This document shows positions 6,324 through 17,650 of a stretch of 25,550 bases of DNA, one piece after another (position 1 is the stretch's first letter; every line of letters starts with the position of its first letter). The position numbers were made by a program, and so were the translations under genes. The notes under the pieces are model-generated. The model did not search any database and was not told where the DNA came from. It saw only the letters and a program-made list of their open reading frames with translations. The stretch spans positions 1-25,550 of the IMG/VR virus record IMGVR_UViG_3300022890_000095; one strand, written 5' to 3'. The DNA comes from a virus.

Positions 6324-7099
6324 TTTAATAAAGTTTTAAGATAAAAACCGTTTTTTATTTCATGTACACAAGCCTCTTTCATAATATCTATCAGTTCCGT
6401 ATCCACGGTTCCTATTTTTGTGGATTCTTGTAATATTGCAGATTCAATATCAGCAAGGGTTTTCCAAGGGATTGTATTTGGGGTGGTTAATACATTTGTA
6501 ACCACGCGGATTCCTCGTAAACCCATCTCCAGTATAGAAGTTCCCCCTGCACAATATGTGGATAAGGCAAGCCCGATAAATGCCTGCTCATAATACTCTT
6601 CACATTTGCCTGCATACCATTCTTTTTGTTCAATAGTATAATCAGCCACAAGGATTTCAAAAGGGGTGTTCAGTTGCTTAATTATTTCAGCCCCATAATA
6701 TGCTGCATTCTTTTTATGAATGTAGGTGTACACCTTTTCCCCCGGGGGCTGCGGGGTATTGTTACTTAAAAAGGCCAGGGGCTTTATTAATTCACTGGTA
6801 ATATTAACATCCTTTAATACTGGTTGTATTTGTTCTTTTTCAGTAACGTGAATAATATTTGATTTTCTTAATGTAGGCAGCCATTCCCTTTTAATTCTTT
6901 TACTATCCAAACCGCACCAAATGATTACGGCAAGCCCTTTATGCCCCTGAATAATAGTAATATCCTCCTCTGTGTAGCATCCGTAGAATACCGCAGGGCT
7001 GTTCATATCTATATAAGGGCTTAATGAGAATAATCCCATAAAACCAAATGCCCCCAGGCCATTTGATTTTCTTCCCTGATGTATTATTATGTTTTCCAT
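6320..7099 (-). CDS. GT-B-fold glycosyltransferase-like protein
   Basis: A 259-residue protein. Residues 173-202 (FIGLALSTYCAGGTSILEMG and following) fit the donor-binding motif of GT-B glycosyltransferases, where a Gly-Gly-T/S then E-x-G/A pattern contacts the nucleotide sugar. The N-terminal 30-110 segment looks like the short Rossmann half of a compact GT-B enzyme and is paralogous to the last 80 residues of the upstream gene (both have G-C-[FY], an [IV]-x-W, then L-P-x-L and N-I-I-H). Start and upstream stop share a TAATG junction. The acceptor is unknown, and the protein is smaller than most GT-B enzymes (about 350-400 residues), so it may be a minimal form. Confidence 0.65.
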   Translation of the reverse strand: MENIIIHQGRKSNGLGAFGFMGLFSLSPYIDMNSPAVFYGCYTEEDITIIQGHKGLAVIIWCGLDSKRIKREWLPTLRKSNIIHVTEKEQIQPVLKDVNITSELIKPLAFLSNNTPQPPGEKVYTYIHKKNAAYYGAEIIKQLNTPFEILVADYTIEQKEWYAGKCEEYYEQAFIGLALSTYCAGGTSILEMGLRGIRVVTNVLTTPNTIPWKTLADIESAILQESTKIGTVDTELIDIMKEACVHEIKNGFYLKTLLK

Positions 7100-8880
7100 T
7101 ACATTTTTTTTCTTAATTCATCAATATTAAACCCTTGAAAATCTGTAGGTAACAGAATACACAATATACCCATTCCATTAAGGGTTTCAATAATTTCAGT
7201 ATCAAAACTGGTATGAATAATATTTGGCCGTTGTAAATATGGTAAATCTCTTCCTTGTATTTTTTCAAATGCTTTTCCCACCCAATGAACTACAAGAATA
7301 CTGCGGTGACGGGTCACTATCTGAAAATCCTTTTGGTTGAAACATCCAAACATTACCAAAGGCTGTTTATTATCCTCATATACACGTAAGGCATATTTGG
7401 AAAGGTAAGGTTCTTCCCCTCCAGAATTGGTTGAAACAAACCCCTGAAGAATATTGCCTGGTTTACAGGGGGTGATTCTATTCTTGAAAAGGGAAACCCA
7501 TTCCCCTTTTGAAAGTGGCGGCGGTGTGGTCTCTAATAAGGATTGCCGCATCATATTATAAAATGCGAAGGCTTCTGGGTCAAGGAATTGTTCTACCCAT
7601 TCCATTTTTTGGCTGTCATAAGCCTTGTAATCCCTGTCATTATGCCCTCTTCCACCGCAGACCCCTATATGATGTTTTATTGAAATCGGGGGGTTTATAA
7701 AGTTAACCAGTGCCCCGCCTGGGTTTGCCTTCCAAAGGTAAACATCATAAAAAGCATTTCCCACTTCCCCCACCATGTACTTCGCCCCTTTGGCAATAGC
7801 TGTACAATGGGCTGATGAATGATGTTGGGGGGTCATCACAGAATAACCTAAACTTAAAAGGTGGTAATACCTTGTCGTATTACACCCTATGATAGAAGGG
7901 CATCCAGCATTTATCCAATTTTCTTCCATTTCCTGAAGATATGTGACTGGGTAAAAATCATCATCTTCAATAAACACCACTAAATCAGCACCTTTTTCAA
8001 AAGCCTCTTTAATCCCTTGTTGATACCTTTCCACTAAATCTATTTTGCCAGGAACGTTGTGATAATCAATAAACAAGGAAAAATTTGCTTTTCTGGTCTG
8101 TTTATTAAGCCTATTTTTACAGAATTCTATAAATAAGGCCCTTTCAGGGCTGTTACTGGGTGTTATGGTGGCTATAACATATTGACCACTCTTCTTACCC
8201 GTTCGTCCATGTACGGGGCTTATATGGGCTGGTAAAGTAAGTATTTCTGATAATGGCTTAACTGGAAACTCCTTTATCGTAGAAACAGGGCTACAATTAA
8301 TTATTTCAATACCTAATTTATCGGCATCCTCTTTTATTTTTGGAAAACCCTTTTTATGTTTCGCATAAGGCATGGATGGTGGTGATTGGTATTCATTATG
8401 CCAGTGGCTTTCCCCTTCTACATTTACCATATCGAACCCAAGTAAAATGATAGTGGTTGCCCCTTGGTGGGCTGCGTAATCTATGGCAGCGGCACCCGAA
8501 TTGTTATTCCAGCATAAGGTATTTTGATTTTCCGATAAACCTAATTTTTTTAACTTATCCTTTGGAAAATAGGTAATGTCGGAAATTCCTGCCTTAAAAC
8601 AGGAGTTTGAACTTACATTTTCCGCTGAATGAGCCAATAGGTTTTCTTTATTATTTTTCCAAAACCCCTCATCCCCAAAGAAAATAGTCTTTAGCCACGG
8701 GGCCAAAACATAGGCCATATTCACAGCAATAACATTCTTATCCTTTAGGGGTTCCATATAAGGGGCAAGCAGGGTAAGGTTATTTGTTTCCCTCACCTTT
8801 GCCTGCACCTCTTGTGGTACTTGTAATGAAGCCATAAGTGATGGGCCACCACCTATGATATAAACTGTTTTAGTCTTCAT
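7099..8880 (-). CDS. Three-domain glycosyltransferase (DUF115/MptE-like + GT-A + GT-B half)
   Basis: I choose the ATG at 8880 (MKTKTVYIIGGGPSL), which overlaps the upstream gene by 11 bases; the ATG at 8934 would overlap it by 65. The 593-residue product has three parts. Residues 1-230 match the DUF115/MptE-like fold of Maf-type glycosyltransferases, with G-G-G-P-S at 10-14, NNSGAAAIDYA near 126-136 and LLGFDM near 146-151. Residues 232-440 are a GT-A-like domain with VVFIEDDDFYPV near 301-312, an acidic metal-binding triad. Residues 505-580 resemble the N-terminal half of a GT-B enzyme and match the next gene. Such a fusion could build a short sugar chain on one scaffold. The substrate is unknown. 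Confidence 0.78.
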   Translation of the reverse strand: MKTKTVYIIGGGPSLMASLQVPQEVQAKVRETNNLTLLAPYMEPLKDKNVIAVNMAYVLAPWLKTIFFGDEGFWKNNKENLLAHSAENVSSNSCFKAGISDITYFPKDKLKKLGLSENQNTLCWNNNSGAAAIDYAAHQGATTIILLGFDMVNVEGESHWHNEYQSPPSMPYAKHKKGFPKIKEDADKLGIEIINCSPVSTIKEFPVKPLSEILTLPAHISPVHGRTGKKSGQYVIATITPSNSPERALFIEFCKNRLNKQTRKANFSLFIDYHNVPGKIDLVERYQQGIKEAFEKGADLVVFIEDDDFYPVTYLQEMEENWINAGCPSIIGCNTTRYYHLLSLGYSVMTPQHHSSAHCTAIAKGAKYMVGEVGNAFYDVYLWKANPGGALVNFINPPISIKHHIGVCGGRGHNDRDYKAYDSQKMEWVEQFLDPEAFAFYNMMRQSLLETTPPPLSKGEWVSLFKNRITPCKPGNILQGFVSTNSGGEEPYLSKYALRVYEDNKQPLVMFGCFNQKDFQIVTRHRSILVVHWVGKAFEKIQGRDLPYLQRPNIIHTSFDTEIIETLNGMGILCILLPTDFQGFNIDELRKKM

Positions 8881-9238
8881 CTTCTTCTGTTTGTTTGTAA
8901 AGTTGTTTAATAAGTTCGTCTGCATCCTTGACATAGATACCCCTGGGGTTCATCATAATACCATTTTCATCGAATACATCCCACCAAGTTTTACTAAGAC
9001 CACGGGCCACCTTTGTGTATTCTTTGTCCTTGGCTGCTTCTCCTTTTAGTGGTGGTTTTACCCAAACGGTTCCGTCCTCGTTACATCTTTTTATTACATC
9101 CATTGCCCCTTTAGGGATTTCACTGGCATCTGCTTCAAATACTTCGTTTTCTTTGTAACGTACACCATTATGTTTGTAACTACCTAAGATTCGTTTCCAA
9201 AACATTTTTACTTCTTTATTATCTTTTTTTCTTTCCAT
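8870..9238 (-). CDS. Small protein of unknown function between capsid and glycosyltransferase genes
   Basis: A 122-residue hydrophilic protein which I do not recognise. After the first 11 residues it reads MFWKRILGSYKHNGVRYKENEVFEAD, a pattern (K-H-N-G-x-x-Y-K-x-x-[ED]) often met in small head-region proteins that lie after the major capsid gene. It ends in an acidic stretch. The ATG at 9205 is preceded by AAAGAAG while the ATG at 9238 has no clear ribosome binding site, so the true protein may be 111 residues. It is separated from the capsid gene by a 69-bp gap holding a small hairpin, and overlaps the glycosyltransferase start by 11 bases. Confidence 0.65.
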   Translation of the reverse strand: MERKKDNKEVKMFWKRILGSYKHNGVRYKENEVFEADASEIPKGAMDVIKRCNEDGTVWVKPPLKGEAAKDKEYTKVARGLSKTWWDVFDENGIMMNPRGIYVKDADELIKQLYKQTEEDED

Positions 9239-9307: not shown

Positions 9308-10390
9308 TTACGAAGCATGAACAATACCCGAATTACCTGACTGGTCTGCACGGATTTGAGGTACTTGTATGGTCATTACTTTGTACTTGGTAAGGAAGTT
9401 TCCTTCAACACTCCATTGTACATTCTGGATACCCATTCCACGTACTAAACGAACCACGTCAGAGGTCATTTGTACTAACAATACATTGGCTGCGGTCAAA
9501 GTATCAACTACCTTAACATCAGTGATACCACCAATTTTCAGGATGCGGTCACGAATAGTCTGTGTGCTTGTTCCTGAAGTATCATAATCCTTATCCATTA
9601 CGGTTTCATAAGCAGTGGGGATATAAAGTTCCCAAGGGCCATAATGGAGGGCATCAATAGAAGCCTGCTTCATTGCCAATACCTTTGCAAGAATAACTGC
9701 ACCTGTGGCCGTGCCCCAGTCAGTACCTAAAGCAACGATATTCCTTTGTGGTTGATTTAGGTAACTATATATAGTACCACCACCGAAAGCATATGTTTCA
9801 TTTGTGAAAAGCATATCTTCTAACTTCTCTGAAACTTTTCTTGCTGCACGTTCTGCCATACCTACGTCCAAACCATTACCCATCTTACGAGAGGCAGAAA
9901 GTACACGGGCATTAATTTCATAATCCATGTGGATTATAGGGATAGGAAGGTAAGTGGTTCCAAATACCTGGCGGTCACCTTTTGAACGGCTTACCCCATC
10001 CATTGTCATTTCGGCACCAGTGGTGTCACTTGAATCGTGCATTTCAAGTACAGTTGTACCCATTGCATTACCAAGGTTATAGGTTAATCCTTTTGTTATC
10101 AAGGACTGAATACCGTTTAAACGGGTTTCACTAATTTTTAGTACAGCATCATCAAGTGTTTTCCACTCGTCCCTGCGAAGGGTTCCTGTGGCTGCATTGA
10201 TTTGGATAGTTTGGTAAGATTTAGGGTCTTTGGCATTACCTGAACCACTATAAACACTTACAAAGGTATTACCGTTGTGTACAAATGGGCGGTAAAATCC
10301 CACATCCGTTTTTGCATCGGCCATGATTTGAGAAGCTACATCACCTTGGGCTTTTCCATTAGCAATTAAATCTACTTGAGCGTTTTCCAT
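9308..10390 (-). CDS. Major capsid protein (HK97 fold, encapsulin-like subfamily)
   Basis: A 360-residue protein following protease/scaffold and decoration genes, with a strong AAAGGAG site before its ATG. The layout is that of encapsulin-like major capsid proteins (HK97 fold): an early E-loop region, LRRDEWKTLDDAVLKISETRLNGIQSLI near residues 72-99, then Y-L-P-I-P-I-I-H near 147-154, R-A-A-R-K-V-S-E-K-L-E-D-M-L-F near 181-195, and a late P-domain containing LGTDWG and a V-V-D-T-L-T segment. It forms the icosahedral shell. I see no long N-terminal delta domain, consistent with a separately made scaffold. The precise subfamily is inferred, but the capsid role is well supported by order and length. 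Confidence 0.85.
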   Translation of the reverse strand: MENAQVDLIANGKAQGDVASQIMADAKTDVGFYRPFVHNGNTFVSVYSGSGNAKDPKSYQTIQINAATGTLRRDEWKTLDDAVLKISETRLNGIQSLITKGLTYNLGNAMGTTVLEMHDSSDTTGAEMTMDGVSRSKGDRQVFGTTYLPIPIIHMDYEINARVLSASRKMGNGLDVGMAERAARKVSEKLEDMLFTNETYAFGGGTIYSYLNQPQRNIVALGTDWGTATGAVILAKVLAMKQASIDALHYGPWELYIPTAYETVMDKDYDTSGTSTQTIRDRILKIGGITDVKVVDTLTAANVLLVQMTSDVVRLVRGMGIQNVQWSVEGNFLTKYKVMTIQVPQIRADQSGNSGIVHAS

Positions 10391-10917: not shown

Positions 10918-11451
10918 TTATCCTACTTTGTACGTTTCAGTCGGCAGCATAGGCTCAGGGGCTTTGGAAGTATTTACAATAACTTCGGGGATGACTTCAC
11001 CTGCATTTAAACTGTAATCAACAATACCTGCGGCCTTTTCAGGGGCAACGGTTTTGGCAATTTTCCTTAACATACCACACTCCATCGCCTGAAGTTCTGC
11101 GGCTTCCCATTCCTTGGAATTGTTAGTGATAAGGGTAATGGTTTCGGTACGGGTTTTTTCCCTAAGTTCTAAACCTGCCGTTACATTGGCCTGAAGGGTA
11201 ACGGGTAACAAAGCAATAATATCTTTCTGCTCCATATTGGCCATAAATGCCGTTACGGTTTCCGCAGTAAGTTCCTTTTCCTCTGCCTTTGTGGCTTCCT
11301 TATTTACCTGTACTTCTTTAGGGGTCATTTTATCAATGGCCTCTTGGGTTTGTTCTGCCAACCATTCACGGTCAGTTTCTACGAATGTGTTCAGTGAGTT
11401 GGCAATCAATGCCGTTACTGAGCATTCGGTACATTTTTCTGCTCTTTTCAT
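10918..11451 (-). CDS. Nested head scaffold protein (internal start in the protease gene)
   Basis: A 177-residue in-frame product starting MKRAEKCTECSV at residue 317 of the protease gene. The start is preceded by AAAGGAG with 9 bases to the ATG, the same strong site used by capsid, decoration, portal and protease genes. The product is charged and helical (WLAEQTQEAIDKMTPKEVQV, then ETVTAFMANMEQKDIIALLP), with a Cys pair near its start. This is the layout of lambda C/Nu3, where the scaffold is the C-terminal part of the protease and is made in excess from an internal start. The function is inferred from architecture. Confidence 0.65.
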   Translation of the reverse strand: MKRAEKCTECSVTALIANSLNTFVETDREWLAEQTQEAIDKMTPKEVQVNKEATKAEEKELTAETVTAFMANMEQKDIIALLPVTLQANVTAGLELREKTRTETITLITNNSKEWEAAELQAMECGMLRKIAKTVAPEKAAGIVDYSLNAGEVIPEVIVNTSKAPEPMLPTETYKVG

Positions 11452-12399
11452 TTTTGTTTTCTCCTTTGGTTTATTATTAGTTGTTATTTCAATATATTCA
11501 GTATTTTCCTTTACAGGAATGGCATCACCATTTAAGGTAATGGTATCATCCTGGGCCTTGGTGTACATTTGTTTGTACAGGGTGGGCATATTCCCTGGAC
11601 GGTTCTTTGGGTTTTTACGATAAACAAATGAATCATCATAAACCTCCTGAAGGTAATAATAAGCCATATCCCCATCCCAACTATCAACCATTCGGCTCAG
11701 GTTACTTACTAAAGCCCGATACCCTATATTAGTGTTTAGTTCCATTAGGGTGGCTACCGAAAGGGCTTTCCTTTCGTCGATTTGTTTTTGTTCCATAATT
11801 ATTATATTTGAATTGATTTGATTATTCTTAGCATTTACCCTAATCCCACAACCGTCATTCCAGCCACAAGCCCCATGTTCACCAGGAAGCAAGGCCAAAT
11901 GGTCAGGGGTGTAATTTTGGGTAATCCCACTATAAACGGTGCCATTGTAATCCCCTGCCTCATCACTTATGGCTGAAAATGCCCCAATGCTTACTTCCAA
12001 GGGGGTTCCTGCCATTATACTTGTGTGAGCCAAAGCACTTGCACCCATTAAGGTTAATTCATTTAATACTACTTCACCCCTTAACTTGTTTCCGTCCATT
12101 ACCGTACCCCTTATGTAGCCAACGGGGTTTACCCCTGCACTGGCTGCACTTATAAAATTACCTTGGTCGTCTTTAGGATGGGAAATTGTTACGGGCATTC
12201 CGTTCCAAGCACTTGCACTGGCTGCCATGATTGCCTGGGTGTGTAATATAGGGCCTTTATTTCCTGCCCTTACGCCTTCGGTCATCATTACCACAGGAAC
12301 AATGATATGTTTTATATTACCAATCATTTCCGTTACCACCTTATACTTTTTTAGGGCATTGGTGTTAAATTGTATGGTTTTGTTTACTTTGGTACTCAT
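10918..12399 (-). CDS. Prohead protease (DUF2213-like) with C-terminal scaffold region
   Basis: A 493-residue protein in three parts. Residues 30-190 resemble DUF2213 head maturation proteases, with TISHPKD near 71-77, EVSIGAF at 135-141 and PDHLALLPGEHGACGW at 165-180. His74, Ser137 and His167 are plausible catalytic residues by analogy with other prohead proteases, not proven. Residues 202-316 are a helical middle part beginning at an in-frame Met. Residues 317-493 are charged, helical and Glu/Lys-rich, like an internal scaffold. The ATG at 12399 follows AAAGGAGAAACC. The scaffold part can apparently also be made separately from an internal start at 11451. The protease would cut scaffold and itself during head maturation. 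Confidence 0.82.
   Translation of the reverse strand: MSTKVNKTIQFNTNALKKYKVVTEMIGNIKHIIVPVVMMTEGVRAGNKGPILHTQAIMAASASAWNGMPVTISHPKDDQGNFISAASAGVNPVGYIRGTVMDGNKLRGEVVLNELTLMGASALAHTSIMAGTPLEVSIGAFSAISDEAGDYNGTVYSGITQNYTPDHLALLPGEHGACGWNDGCGIRVNAKNNQINSNIIIMEQKQIDERKALSVATLMELNTNIGYRALVSNLSRMVDSWDGDMAYYYLQEVYDDSFVYRKNPKNRPGNMPTLYKQMYTKAQDDTITLNGDAIPVKENTEYIEITTNNKPKEKTKMKRAEKCTECSVTALIANSLNTFVETDREWLAEQTQEAIDKMTPKEVQVNKEATKAEEKELTAETVTAFMANMEQKDIIALLPVTLQANVTAGLELREKTRTETITLITNNSKEWEAAELQAMECGMLRKIAKTVAPEKAAGIVDYSLNAGEVIPEVIVNTSKAPEPMLPTETYKVG
11461..11470 (-). promoter_or_regulatory. Strong internal ribosome binding site for the nested scaffold
   Basis: The minus strand reads ACCAAAGGAG followed by nine bases (AAAACAAAA) and an in-frame ATG. 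Inside a coding frame such a complete site is unlikely by chance. It matches the sites before 10390, 10874, 12399 and 16148 almost base for base (AAAGGAGA). Confidence 0.7.
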
Positions 12400-12510: not shown

Positions 12511-14700
12511 TTAGGTAGTGGGGGTTGGTTTCTTTCTTACATACTTATTCCCTACATCGCTTTTTCTAGCAGGTAAAGCCAAGCATCTACAATTATGTAC
12601 AACTATTCCTTTTGCCATATAACTTTCATCTTGCTCTACAGACAAATTGAATAATGTTCTTGGATGTGTTACTTTCCATTTTTTTATGCTTTCAATTTCT
12701 AAACTGGTAGTATTATATTCCCCCGTATGGTTTCCAACTACACGGGCCAACTCATTTTCAATTTCATCTAAACATTGATTTATTTTTGCCCCTGTATAGC
12801 GTAATACAAACCAACCCTCATTTTCAATATTCTTTTGACGTATTGCATCCTTTTCCTTATCCTTATGCCAGTACTCACCATCACACTCAATAACTATTTT
12901 TAAAGTGGGGATTGCAAAATCTGTATTATACCTTAAAATAGGATACTGAAATACATAATCAACTCCCATTTTATCTAACAATAAAGCCATACGGGTTTCA
13001 ATATAAGTTTTACGCCCACTTTTCCTATGTTTAGCCATTCTTGCATTTATTCTCTTTTCTGGATAAAGCTCTAAAGTTTTTGCTAAAGTTATTTGCACCT
13101 TTTTACGGGTTTCCATATTATACATAGGATTGTTTTCCTTCATTCTTTTAGTAGATGCTTCCCTATGTTCTTTAGTGTTTGTTAAATGCCTGCCTGATTC
13201 CCTTACTGATTCTTGTTGTAATATCCACTTACCTTCTTTTACTAATTGGCGTGTTTTTTCATTTGCGGCCTTTGTCACAGTATCTTTATCCCTTAAACCA
13301 ACTTTGTATTGGTGTAACATACTTGCAGAATTCTTTTTGCTTATATTCTTTCTATGTTCAGGATTACTCCATTGCTTATCTGTTATATCTAAAGAATTAC
13401 AACGTTTACTACAATAAGTATTATAATAAGGAATTGGATTTCCACACCTTTTGCATTTATTTGCAAGTATAGTTATGTTTTCACCTATTATAAAATCCCC
13501 TGCTTCTTTCCAGCGGCCTATTGTACCCCCTGTATTACTTTTTAATACTTGATGATTAATTGTCATTGTTAGTGTTGTACCCCCTTTAAATGTAAACTTA
13601 ACCACTTCAGGGGTTTGTTTTTTTGTTCTTGGTAAGGCATAAACCTTTTGAAATCTTTTTTTATGTGTTAAAACATAATCACCTATTTCAATATCCCTTA
13701 TTTTTTTCCACCCATTTGTAGTATATATAGGAACTTGTCCATTTATAAAACAATTTGGATGTCTCGGAATCATTGGTTGTATGGCCTCCAATGTGTAAAA
13801 CTTTCCTTGTAAGGGGGCGCACAAATTACAAACCCTACTATCCCCTGCCGTACTCCATTCCGCTTGTACCGTTACCCCTTCGGCTCCCCAATTCTTATAT
13901 TCCTGTATAGTGGCCACATGGTGTGCCCTTATTATTTCCGTTCTGGCTAACATCTTGGCCCTACGTTCCGCAGGGATAAACCTTCCAAGGGTATCCGTAA
14001 TACCTAAAGTTTTTCCACTGCCATCTATTACGGCTGTTAGTTTACGGCTAATTAGGTAAGGGCTGTCCCCATTCATAAGCCCCTCTGTTAGGACACGGCT
14101 TATTTGGTTGTTCATCGCATCCGTAATACCCTTTAGGTCATTAAATGTACGGGTGTATAAGGCCCCTAAACGGTCTACATGGAATGGGGATGATAGGCTT
14201 GCACCTATTCCACCCGTGGCATCAGCTAATTCGGCAGGTACTGCATATCCTGCTTTCTTTAGTTCGAGCCTTGCCCTTTGAACACCCCTTGTATATGAAT
14301 CGGTAATATAAATATCTGTCCATGCCTTGTTTACGGCTGAACCACTTTGTTGGAAAAAGTCAATGTCCAATATATCTGCATCCACTTGGGCCTTTAGCCA
14401 ATCAATAAAGGAATTAACCTTACCCCCTGTGGTATTAAAGGCAAATGCCTTAGGGCCTGGTAAAGTGGCATATACTGTGGGTGAGGAAAACACCACGGGT
14501 TTTAGCCCGAATACATCCTGTGTATTAACGGCCTGCCGTATGGCTTTCTTTACCTTTCCAAACCTTAACATTAACTGCCTATCGAAAGACCTTGCCAACA
14601 CGGCTGTATTGGTAGGGTCTGCCTTGGCAATAGCATATAATGCCAACCCTGTTTTAAATAGGGGGGCTTTTGCTTTATATATGTTTAGGTTTCTATTCAT
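12511..14700 (-). CDS. Minor head protein (MuF/SPP1 gp7-like) interrupted by an intein
   Basis: The precursor has 729 residues. The flanks form a head morphogenesis protein of the Mu gpF/SPP1 gp7 type: a helical N-terminal part, then a domain with MLARTEIIRAHHVATIQEY at 250-268, EWSTAGDSRVCNLCAPLQGK at 281-300 and RHPN at 313-316. It resumes with CRCLALPAR at 704. Joined, these make the family's R-H-P-N-C-R-C motif. Residues 317-703 are an intein. The spliced protein would be 342 residues, normal for this family, which helps head assembly and DNA entry and sits near the portal. The gene lies right after the portal gene, its usual place. Without splicing the conserved Cys motif is broken, so splicing is probably needed for function. 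Confidence 0.92.
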   Translation of the reverse strand: MNRNLNIYKAKAPLFKTGLALYAIAKADPTNTAVLARSFDRQLMLRFGKVKKAIRQAVNTQDVFGLKPVVFSSPTVYATLPGPKAFAFNTTGGKVNSFIDWLKAQVDADILDIDFFQQSGSAVNKAWTDIYITDSYTRGVQRARLELKKAGYAVPAELADATGGIGASLSSPFHVDRLGALYTRTFNDLKGITDAMNNQISRVLTEGLMNGDSPYLISRKLTAVIDGSGKTLGITDTLGRFIPAERRAKMLARTEIIRAHHVATIQEYKNWGAEGVTVQAEWSTAGDSRVCNLCAPLQGKFYTLEAIQPMIPRHPNCFINGQVPIYTTNGWKKIRDIEIGDYVLTHKKRFQKVYALPRTKKQTPEVVKFTFKGGTTLTMTINHQVLKSNTGGTIGRWKEAGDFIIGENITILANKCKRCGNPIPYYNTYCSKRCNSLDITDKQWSNPEHRKNISKKNSASMLHQYKVGLRDKDTVTKAANEKTRQLVKEGKWILQQESVRESGRHLTNTKEHREASTKRMKENNPMYNMETRKKVQITLAKTLELYPEKRINARMAKHRKSGRKTYIETRMALLLDKMGVDYVFQYPILRYNTDFAIPTLKIVIECDGEYWHKDKEKDAIRQKNIENEGWFVLRYTGAKINQCLDEIENELARVVGNHTGEYNTTSLEIESIKKWKVTHPRTLFNLSVEQDESYMAKGIVVHNCRCLALPARKSDVGNKYVRKKPTPTT
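12592..13752 (-). mobile_element. Intein (387 residues) with zinc ribbon and Vsr-like homing endonuclease
   Basis: The intein starts at Cys317 and ends His702-Asn703, with Cys704 as the +1 residue, the standard splicing set. Block A is CFINGQVPIYTTNGWKKI plus IGDYVLTH. Block B has T-I-N-H (Thr380 to His383). Blocks F/G read LFNLSVEQDESYMAKGIVVHN. The insert between holds a zinc ribbon (CKRC near 416-419, then C430 and C434), then repeated basic NUMOD-like segments (HRKNISKKN, HREASTKRMKENNPMY). A nuclease domain follows with ETR at 568-570, YNTDFAIP at 591-598 and IECDGEYWH at 604-612, matching Vsr-like/EDxHD homing endonucleases. This makes it a probable mobile intein able to copy itself into uninterrupted alleles. 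Confidence 0.9.
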
Positions 14701-14705
14701 TTTTA

Positions 14706-16148
14706 TTATTTATTCTCTGCATCTAGTAATGCCTGTTCCTCTACCGTTGGTTCTTCCACTTCCATACCGGCCAAAAAGTCGGCAAGGTACATTTGAAGCT
14801 CTTCTATTTCTTCAGCCGTCATATGCATTACATACTTGTAGAACATTTCAGGAGGAAATAACATTGCTGCGGATGGGTTGGCAGTATATTCCTTTATGGC
14901 CATTGCCCTTATTTTACCTATTTCAGCCTTTTCCTTTTCACTTGTATTTGTTAGGGTTGTCCACTCCGTGCCATAATCCTCCACCAAGGGTAATACCTTT
15001 ACACTCATTAGCCTGTTTACAAATTCCCTTAATATCATTGTATCAGCATATTCCTGCCTACGGGTTTCAATTAGTTCTTTCCAAGCGTCTGCATCCTGCC
15101 CACTACTTAACTCACCCCTTTCACTTCCTGTTAATATTCTTTTAGGTATTCCCTTAACAGAACTTATCATCGTTACCTGTACATCAACATGAGCTGTGGG
15201 GTCGCTTACCTGTGTGGCAAGGCTTTTCATTTCCACACCTTCATTAATAAAGAACCGTCTTAGGTTATTTTCATATTCATCCATTTGGGTGTCCAGGTTT
15301 TCTTTTAGGTTGGGGCCTCCTGAGTAACCTTCTTTTACATCTGCCGTATAACCTGCACGGGCACCCCTCCAAAACATTTCAGCCGAACCGCCTACAATCT
15401 TTTCCAAGTCCAAAAGGCGGTTGTAAATACTTTGTAATTCAGGTTCACCATATATTTCACTTTCCAGTTGTGTTCCTGCCACATGGATTACACGGCTGTA
15501 ATGCACTAATAAGGTAGTGTTATTCCCATCATCGTATTTGGTTTCCAATTGATATACCAATGGTTTACCATAACGGGGGGAGGTTTTTGTTGTGTCCCAT
15601 TTATTAATACATACGGCATTTTCTGAATACGGTGTAACGTACTCTAATTTTAAGGTCGTGGAGGGCTTAACACCCTCTTCCCATACCTCAGGTGTACTTA
15701 CATCGTTAAAGCCCAGGAGAAGCACCCCAAAACGGCCTATGCAGGACAACTTGTCTAAGCGTATAAAGGCCTGTTTTAATTTAAGCTCTTTATATAGTTC
15801 TTTCCATGCTTTTAGTAGTTCATCGGCTTCTACAACCTTACCTGGGGTAAATACAATCTGTTCACCTTTCCAAGTGGCTTCAATTGGTCTGTCTATTACG
15901 GCCTTGGCAATATCCTGCCTTTTATACTTACCGTAATAATCCCTATAAGTTATTTTATCAGGATAACCAAGGGCAGTGTAAATATTCCTTTCACCCCCGT
16001 ACTGTGAACCAAGGTTACCGAAGTATTTTAAACGGCTTGTGGCAGAACCCAACATATCTTGGTAAACCCGAAGGTTAGTTTCCATTTCCTCAGGGGTGGG
16101 TTTTCTTTTAATATGTGTTTCAATAATAGGTGTTATACCTCTTACCAT
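14706..16148 (-). CDS. Portal protein (DUF1073-like)
   Basis: A 480-residue portal, the dodecameric ring through which DNA enters the head. Residues 333-352 (GIPKRILTGSERGELSSGQD) are the hallmark of the DUF1073 portal group. The N-terminal half contains DRPIEATWKGEQIV near 86-99 and FGVLLLGFNDV near 140-150, both usual for that group. The C-terminal part is helical and acidic. The length fits the family. The ATG follows AAAAAGGAGACAAAATC, and the first seven bases overlap the end of the large terminase gene. The next gene is the minor head protein, the standard order. Confidence 0.9.
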   Translation of the reverse strand: MVRGITPIIETHIKRKPTPEEMETNLRVYQDMLGSATSRLKYFGNLGSQYGGERNIYTALGYPDKITYRDYYGKYKRQDIAKAVIDRPIEATWKGEQIVFTPGKVVEADELLKAWKELYKELKLKQAFIRLDKLSCIGRFGVLLLGFNDVSTPEVWEEGVKPSTTLKLEYVTPYSENAVCINKWDTTKTSPRYGKPLVYQLETKYDDGNNTTLLVHYSRVIHVAGTQLESEIYGEPELQSIYNRLLDLEKIVGGSAEMFWRGARAGYTADVKEGYSGGPNLKENLDTQMDEYENNLRRFFINEGVEMKSLATQVSDPTAHVDVQVTMISSVKGIPKRILTGSERGELSSGQDADAWKELIETRRQEYADTMILREFVNRLMSVKVLPLVEDYGTEWTTLTNTSEKEKAEIGKIRAMAIKEYTANPSAAMLFPPEMFYKYVMHMTAEEIEELQMYLADFLAGMEVEEPTVEEQALLDAENK

Positions 16149-17650
16149 GATTTTGTCTCCTTTTTGCTTGTTAGTTTTGCGAAGGCTGCACCTGCGGCAT
16201 CCACTTGGTCTTTATATTTTCCGAAGGGAAAGAACCTATGCTCTTCTACGAACTCGTGATTCCAATCCCCGTGTAATAACATCACATTACCCCAGTTTAT
16301 TTGAACACTCCAAGGGTCAGCCCGATATACTTTATTACCTACGGGCCTTTCAGCTTCTATTAGGAAGCCTGCCAACATCTTTACAGTATTTTCGGCACTT
16401 TCTTTTCCACCACTCCCTGGCTCCTGCTCAATAAACTGTTTTACGTCACGGCCATCCGCTTCGGCAGTTTGCTTTATCATTGTCTCCCTGTCCTCACTGC
16501 TCCACTGCCCACGTTTAACGTCTAATACAATATACCTATCCTGTTTGGTTTTTAAGACCTTTACACCCGTTGTATAGGCCCCACCACCTGCGGTTCCTGC
16601 CTTATCCCAATACCTTATCGGTGCATTCATATCATAATCAGGAGGTAATTGGGTGATAGTTTGGAATTTCTCTACTTTGAACATCCCTCCACCTGGGGGT
16701 GTTGGATTTTGGCCAACTTGACCTGCATAACCATATTGACCTAAATCGGCTTCCAATTCCAAAAGGGCTTCTTTGTTTAGCCTGTTAGGGTCTAATAAAC
16801 CATTGATATATCTCTCCTTTAATTCAGGTGGTTGTACATACTTATCATACCCATTGGATAATTCACCTGGAAGGCAAATATGTTTTAGGTTTGTTTTCTT
16901 TTTAGCAAGCAAATGGCCTGATATATCGTTTTGGTGTATTCTTTGCTGAATTATAATTGTTACGGAAACAGATTTATCCACTTTCCTTGTGGAAGATACT
17001 GAATCAAACCAATGATTTGTTGTTTCTAAGGGGGTGGCATTTTTTTCTGGTTTAGGGTTGTTTAAATCATCCCATATTAATATATGTCCATGAAATCCAG
17101 TTAAGGAACCACCTACTGAGGTACTATATCTATACCCACCAATTTTCACGCCTTTACCCCTTCTACCAAGGTTTTCATCAATAGTTTTTTTAATTACCTT
17201 ATAATTACTCTTTTGGTCTTTGTCCTCTTTTATCCCCAATTCAGGGTACATGGCTTTAAACTTTTCACTTCGTATCAACTCCCTGCAATCTTCTGCACTT
17301 TCCAAACTCAATGTACTACTGTATGACCCTGTAAGGAATTGTATATGAAACCACCGTGTCCATACCCAAGCAGGAAACGCCCTTAAACATATAGTTGTCT
17401 TTGTTGTTCCTGGGGGTATATTTATAAGAATATCATATAATTTCTTTTTCCTTTCCCCAACTCTTTCCCCTACTATTTGCAGTTCATCACAAAGGTATTG
17501 GATATGCCAGGCATCTTGGTAAGGTTCCTGTGTTAGTTCACTCCAAAAGTATAACAGGAAGACATAGTATGACCTATTGTTTAACTCCCTCTGAACCAGT
17601 AGGGGGTTTTCCAATAGCATCTGCATTGTTTCTTGTTTATTGCTTGTCAT
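16142..17650 (-). CDS. Terminase large subunit
   Basis: A 502-residue packaging motor. The ATPase half has a Walker A of the terminase kind, NIPPGTTKTT at residues 77-86, a Walker B ILIWDDLNNP at 190-199, and the coupling motif QQRIHQND at 235-242. The C-terminal RNase H-like nuclease half begins with RYWDKAGTAGGG at 346-357 (Asp349), continues with YIVLDVKRGQW at 373-383 (Asp377) and has a late D-Q-V-D-A motif. Both halves are intact. It cuts concatemeric DNA and pumps it into the prohead. The gene starts six bases after the small subunit stop. Length and domain order match T4/P22-like large terminases. Confidence 0.95.
   Translation of the reverse strand: MTSNKQETMQMLLENPLLVQRELNNRSYYVFLLYFWSELTQEPYQDAWHIQYLCDELQIVGERVGERKKKLYDILINIPPGTTKTTICLRAFPAWVWTRWFHIQFLTGSYSSTLSLESAEDCRELIRSEKFKAMYPELGIKEDKDQKSNYKVIKKTIDENLGRRGKGVKIGGYRYSTSVGGSLTGFHGHILIWDDLNNPKPEKNATPLETTNHWFDSVSSTRKVDKSVSVTIIIQQRIHQNDISGHLLAKKKTNLKHICLPGELSNGYDKYVQPPELKERYINGLLDPNRLNKEALLELEADLGQYGYAGQVGQNPTPPGGGMFKVEKFQTITQLPPDYDMNAPIRYWDKAGTAGGGAYTTGVKVLKTKQDRYIVLDVKRGQWSSEDRETMIKQTAEADGRDVKQFIEQEPGSGGKESAENTVKMLAGFLIEAERPVGNKVYRADPWSVQINWGNVMLLHGDWNHEFVEEHRFFPFGKYKDQVDAAGAAFAKLTSKKETKSW

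Follow-up and report, generated by a model that had tools for sequence, protein, structure and literature searches.

A predicted mobile intein carrying an EDxHD endonuclease domain in frame interrupts a MuF-type head protein of an uncultured tailed virus at a conserved cysteine

The stretch of DNA analyzed here (the window, 25,550 nucleotides) corresponds to positions 1-25,550 of the IMG/VR virus record IMGVR_UViG_3300022890_000095. The open reading frame under study occupies 729 codons on its minus strand (12511-14700) and encodes the precursor of a MuF-type minor head protein. Residues 198-317 match Pfam Phage_Mu_F (PF04233; E 5e-9, above cut-off), and the precursor matches the head morphogenesis family phrog_758 (E 8.5e-34), in agreement with the MuF-like identity given in a preliminary description of this DNA. 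Adjoining genes, also on the minus strand, encode a portal protein directly upstream (14706-16148; phrog_146, E 1e-63; Pfam Phage_portal_3, E 4e-36) and the terminase large subunit (16142-17650; phrog_38, E 1e-78). This neighborhood, together with the Phage_Mu_F domain and the arrangement C-x2-C ... H-P-x-C-R-C, is that of the MuF/SPP1 gp7-like proteins. Downstream, on the same strand, lie a gene for a DUF2213 protein resembling head maturation proteases (10918-12399; Pfam DUF2213, E 3e-7; phrog_12864, E 5e-7) and a major capsid protein candidate (9308-10390; Pfam DUF6260, E 3e-22; phrog_771, virion structural protein).

Also downstream of the head genes is an ORF of 611 amino acids (7099-8934) that matches phrog_4603 (alpha-2,3-sialyltransferase, E 2e-35) and is weakly MptE-like, an odd place for a glycan enzyme. 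Searches for tRNAs and Rfam families returned none in the window. Matches to the MuF clade are scattered over contigs of metagenome-assembled genomes (MAGs) assigned to Syntrophomonadaceae, Spirochaetota, Bacteroidales, Deltaproteobacteria, Halanaerobiaceae and others, and the nearest isolate by MuF is a haloarchaeal virus at 33%; given this scatter and the distance of that isolate, host assignment from the MuF clade was dropped.

The MuF reading frame is interrupted by an intein of 387 residues (residues 317-703), which corresponds exactly to nucleotides 12592-13752 (-). It is flanked by an N-extein of residues 1-316 (13753-14700, -; PF04233 and phrog_758 matches and MuF motif alignment) and a C-extein of residues 704-729 plus the stop codon (12511-12591, -), whose first residue, C704, is at once the +1 nucleophile and the conserved cysteine of HPxCRC. 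The protein junctions read IPRHPN/CFINGQ ... VVHN/CRCLALP, and those in the DNA ...CATCCAAAT / TGTTTTATAAAT ... GTACATAAT / TGTAGATGC... Removal of the intein thus yields IPRHPN-CRCLALP in a protein of 342 residues (729-387). Both the placement of the intein exactly at the HPN/CRC cysteine and the restoration of R-H-P-N-C-R-C on excision, as put forward in the preliminary description, are upheld by these junctions, and the Pfam, NCBIfam and phrog domain matches offer independent support that this reading is not due to chance. Its designation of the motif as the most conserved of the family is slightly strong: the motif is conserved, but C-x2-C and ARTE are equally so in the alignment.

The intein as a whole is recognized by Pfam Intein_splicing (PF14890) and NCBIfam TIGR01443 (intein_Cterm, C-terminal splicing region). 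The Pfam match ends at residue 703 with an E-value of 1.5e-8 and 35.1 bits, slightly below the curated cut-off of 35.8, and the NCBIfam match exceeds its cut-off. A custom HMM and an alignment of 29 inteins delimit an N-terminal Hint splicing half (residues 317-412; 13465-13752, -), and TIGR01443 and the same alignment a C-terminal half (residues 664-703; 12592-12711, -). The N-terminal nucleophile, C317, occupies intein position 1 and is at least 90% conserved in this alignment, in which the threonine and histidine of the block B TxxH (T380-H383) and the terminal histidine and asparagine (H702-N703) are invariant. An AlphaFold2 model of the intein alone reached a pLDDT of 85 (57, a poor value, for the full precursor, whose model was set aside), and its best structural matches are Hint or intein domains (1at0, 6qaz, 6bs8 and 2in0; TMt 0.5-0.57) and the catalytic domain of I-Bth0305I. 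A position-1 nucleophile, TxxH, HN, a +1 cysteine, continuous intein-free homologues and a Hint fold are thus all found, as expected of a class 1 intein, and from these features we infer that the 729-residue precursor would undergo class 1 protein splicing.

Between the two Hint halves lies a putative homing endonuclease in frame. The insert opens with a zinc-ribbon-like motif, C-x2-C-x10-C-x3-C (C416, C419, C430 and C434; 13399-13455, -), the four cysteines of which are at least 90% conserved among the 29 inteins. This is followed by a helical linker (residues 435-545; 13066-13398, -) with ANEKTR and NPMY stretches, presumably DNA-binding and NUMOD-like judging by sequence and model, and by an EDxHD (Vsr-like) endonuclease domain (residues 546-660; 12721-13065, -). 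Precursor residues 579-652 match the Vsr-like nuclease family DUF559 (Pfam, E 1e-11), and I-Bth0305I (PDB 3R3P) ranks first by sequence profile (E 3e-12) and matches the fold of the model with a TMt of 0.87 and an rmsd of 1.7. Alignment assigns E568, D594, E605/D607 and H612 as candidate catalytic residues, so that both the EDxHD/Vsr catalytic fold and its candidate residues are present. The profile and fold matches to 3R3P place the enzyme among the EDxHD endonucleases, a type described from group I introns (PMC3943268). The likeness to I-Bth0305I, reviewed in the same work, is one of catalytic-domain fold and profile; I-Bth0305I belongs to a group I intron, whereas the domain in the window is fused in frame into an intein. 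The window enzyme is predicted to cut intein-less MuF alleles. Such a homing endonuclease within the intein, absent from the preliminary description, would explain the spread of the element. Free-standing EDxHD endonucleases with zinc-finger N-termini were also observed on two other contigs (L014:2868-3791 and L015:3662-4393); they share DGEYWHKDKEKD with the window intein, and the L014 copy adjoins phage structural genes.

A profile search of genome contigs with an alignment of whole precursors recovered no relatives. Viral contigs were searched with an extein-only alignment, which avoids the bias of an intein query. H-x-x-C-R-C is uninterrupted in 72 of the 78 nearest viral MuF relatives with a readable site, and the intein is present in the other six, two of which are copies of the window. 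The alignment of intein-free homologues across the junction, proposed in the preliminary description as a check, therefore favors the intein; the junction was also seen by eye to be continuous in seven intein-free proteins (L005-L009, L011 and L013). The site is likewise empty in the MAG relatives L101-L104, L107, L109 and L110, and the sister proteins L023 (with intein) and L102 (empty), 74% identical in amino acid sequence, provide a clean case of presence and absence. Among homologues the asparagine of HPN varies (N/Q/M/G/S/L), and the histidine, the cysteine and the R-C are fixed. One contig lacking both intein and CRC (L180) was considered as a possible intron carrier at the same codon and rejected, since it continues into a MutS-like frame with no Rfam match and is probably chimeric. 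Another MuF protein (L009:3168-5675), with an intact HPQCRC, has a C-terminal extension of about 500 residues.

Composition and relationships of the intein differ from those of its host protein. Its G+C content is 32.0% versus 44.7% for the N-extein. Over its full length the intein shares 49% identity with that of L038, whose extein aligns with that of the window over 39 amino acids only (E 0.009); such identity between inteins with barely recognizable exteins indicates that the intein moves horizontally. The inteins of L039 (48%), L042 (46%), L045 (43%) and L046 (39%) are also similar, with distant exteins in each case. On the extein tree, in which 4 of 27 branches are well supported, the full, mini and absent states require 12 changes, a number as low in 143 of 200 label shuffles. 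Mini-inteins without endonuclease occur in L034 (193 aa), L036 (173 aa) and L044 (140 aa). The related in-frame endonucleases are under purifying selection, with dN/dS of about 0.11 in the two informative pairs of relatives (L038/L039 and L023/L031); these figures come from relatives, the four metagenomic copies L001-L004 being near-identical and such pairs uninformative. Taken together, distribution, decay and selection fit a homing cycle in which inteins are gained, decay and disappear.

The element is therefore very probably a mobile full-length class 1 intein that carries an EDxHD homing endonuclease in frame and interrupts the MuF protein of this uncultured tailed virus just before the conserved cysteine of H-P-x-C-R-C. 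Following known intein chemistry, C317 would undergo an N-S acyl shift, C704 would attack, N703 would cyclize with the help of H702, and the exteins would be ligated as HPN-CRC into the 342-residue MuF protein. During co-infection, as in known homing biology, the endonuclease would cut intein-less MuF alleles across the insertion codon, and recombination would then copy the intein into the empty allele. Two features probably favor the site: there is little variation in its DNA and residues, and the motif would not survive an imprecise loss of the intein.

The alternative that survives best, though an unlikely one, is that splicing is active but the endonuclease of the window is dead and the intein now inherited vertically. 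The outright loss of the endonuclease from the three mini-inteins shows that decay does occur at this site; however, the candidate residues E568, D594, E605 and H612 and the four cysteines of the zinc motif are intact and conserved in the window, and the low dN/dS of the related in-frame enzymes also speaks against it.

Inteins at this position are not confined to the window. A single pattern scan, counted by hand, yielded some 40 different MuF genes interrupted by an intein at the same codon, portal-MuF fusions included, about 24 of them with an in-frame EDxHD domain. In 2004 an intein was described in the MuF of a Mu-like prophage of Methylococcus capsulatus (Bath), without recognizable endonuclease and resembling archaeal IF-2 inteins (PMC517821), and in 2020 another in a phage minor head protein (PMC7468147). 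What the prophage shares with the window is an intein within the MuF (gpF/gp30) head protein, a likeness at the level of the host protein, whereas the window intein carries an in-frame EDxHD domain. Interruption at the same cysteine was also found in Vibrio phages 1.266.O and 1.265.O, Gordonia phages Lennon, Vivi2, Fosterous and Malisha, Aaphi23 and Klebsiella phage RCIP0054; the site of 1.266.O reads HPNA/C and its record names a 'hint domain protein'. All these share the H-x-x-C/C-R-C codon with the window, and wherever an endonuclease was found it is of the EDxHD type; in those checked (Lennon excluded) it lies antisense inside the intein region, as opposed to in frame in the window. In GenBank, the depositors of Escherichia phages vB-Eco-KMB36 and fEg-Eco06 annotated a 'minor head protein with inserted intein'. 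That of KMB36 interrupts the CxxC cysteine (TSTTC/RARDG) and not HxxC, and the first cysteine of the C-x2-C pair constitutes a second MuF intein site (L037; KMB36, L098). One MuF gene (L052:3962-5884, equivalent to L083) harbors two mini-inteins, at the CxxC and the HPxC cysteines, and in L045:959-1960 the intein sits at the second cysteine of CRC (HVSCR/C), a third insertion codon within that motif. Given these loci, the two papers and the GenBank annotations, the view of the preliminary description that a structural head protein is an uncommon intein host does not hold, and the window intein is a new example, with an in-frame EDxHD domain, among already known MuF-site inteins.

A tblastn search with the window intein led to isolate phages in which the match falls on the strand opposite MuF. 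The MuF gene of these phages is contiguous and open, and a long ORF running antisense within its intein region encodes the EDxHD endonuclease. Carriers are Vibrio phages 1.266.O, 1.265.O and H2, E. coli phage KMB36, Gordonia phages Malisha, Fosterous, Vivi2 and Angelicage, Aaphi23, Klebsiella phage RCIP0054 and Pseudomonas phage CF74b (antisense ORFs at L097:1285-2022, L098:2767-3519, L099:2524-3420 and L131:2504-3343; also in L132, L133, L134, L135 and L136). Three translated antisense ORFs match DUF559, MTES_1575 or Vsr, two have HTH domains, and the antisense endonuclease is unannotated in the isolate phages checked. The Malisha protein has relatives in 127 phage records, some of which were inspected for strand. 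In informative Gordonia and Vibrio pairs, dN/dS in the overlap is 0.21-0.28 in the antisense frame versus 0.59-0.72 in the sense frame, indicating that selection falls on the antisense frame. Group I introns are known to harbor endonuclease genes in antisense orientation (PMC9548176). No intein with such a gene turned up in a literature search of open-licence papers, and this arrangement may be undescribed so far.

In a further group (L070, L074, L077, L127 and L128) the MuF gene is divided into separate IntN and IntC ORFs that flank an EDxHD ORF on the other strand, four of these being portal-MuF genes (L070:2165-5487, L074:1940-5230, L077:2057-5267 and L127:3779-6175). The IntN of L070, L074 and L077 has A or S instead of Cys at position 1, as in class 2/3 inteins. 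Dassa and colleagues reportedly described, in 2009, fractured genes in which split inteins are associated with Vsr-like endonucleases; the same kind of endonuclease is tied to inteins there, whereas the window intein is contiguous and its endonuclease in frame. At two other loci (L069:1519-2954 and L072:1740-4909) the MuF intein seems to be divided between overlapping frames, and the IntC ORF is fused to an HNH endonuclease.

The position of the intein also bears on head assembly. Dependence of assembly on splicing is plausible from the sequence: in the unspliced protein, the two halves of a probable metal site, CxxC and HPxCRC, are kept apart by the intein. Splicing that is conditional on redox state or metal at this cysteine-rich site could go further and control head assembly, making the intein useful to the virus. 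The location on a cysteine of the probable metal site, the second site at the first CxxC cysteine (L037, L052) and the suggestion that splicing rate may regulate head morphogenesis (PMC517821) are in line with this proposal. We nevertheless consider it improbable, as its absence from 72 of the 78 closest relatives and its scattered distribution argue against usefulness, and conserved cysteine codons also suit homing and the +1 nucleophile, making regulation unnecessary. That the Hint domain is instead a module for regulated cleavage and release, as in polymorphic toxins and BIL domains, is very hard to credit, since, although the Hint fold is common to hedgehog, BIL and polymorphic-toxin HINT domains, 1at0 and a BIL domain are among the structures matched by the model, and some MuF proteins have C-terminal extensions (L009), the C-extein here is only the 26-residue MuF tail, its +1 cysteine completes HPxCRC, the terminal HN+C is present, intein-free homologues are continuous and there is no separate C-terminal effector domain.

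With a mobile homing intein as the preferred reading of the window, the comparison favors, with some reserve, a wider view in which the metal-site cysteines of MuF are a homing hotspot and one EDxHD family is connected to inteins in four different arrangements: as an in-frame domain, lost altogether, as a free-standing gene between split halves, and antisense in a contiguous intein with the antisense frame selected. If true, the antisense-in-intein arrangement would be a new wiring of mobile inteins, and the window would stand for the fused state in this series. The idea that phage structural proteins rarely host inteins is thereby corrected: MuF appears to host them repeatedly, at the cysteines of its metal site. 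The occurrence of empty, full, mini, split and antisense-endonuclease versions at essentially one codon provides a natural series for the invasion, fusion and loss of endonucleases, which is also suited to asking whether head assembly is sensitive to splicing.
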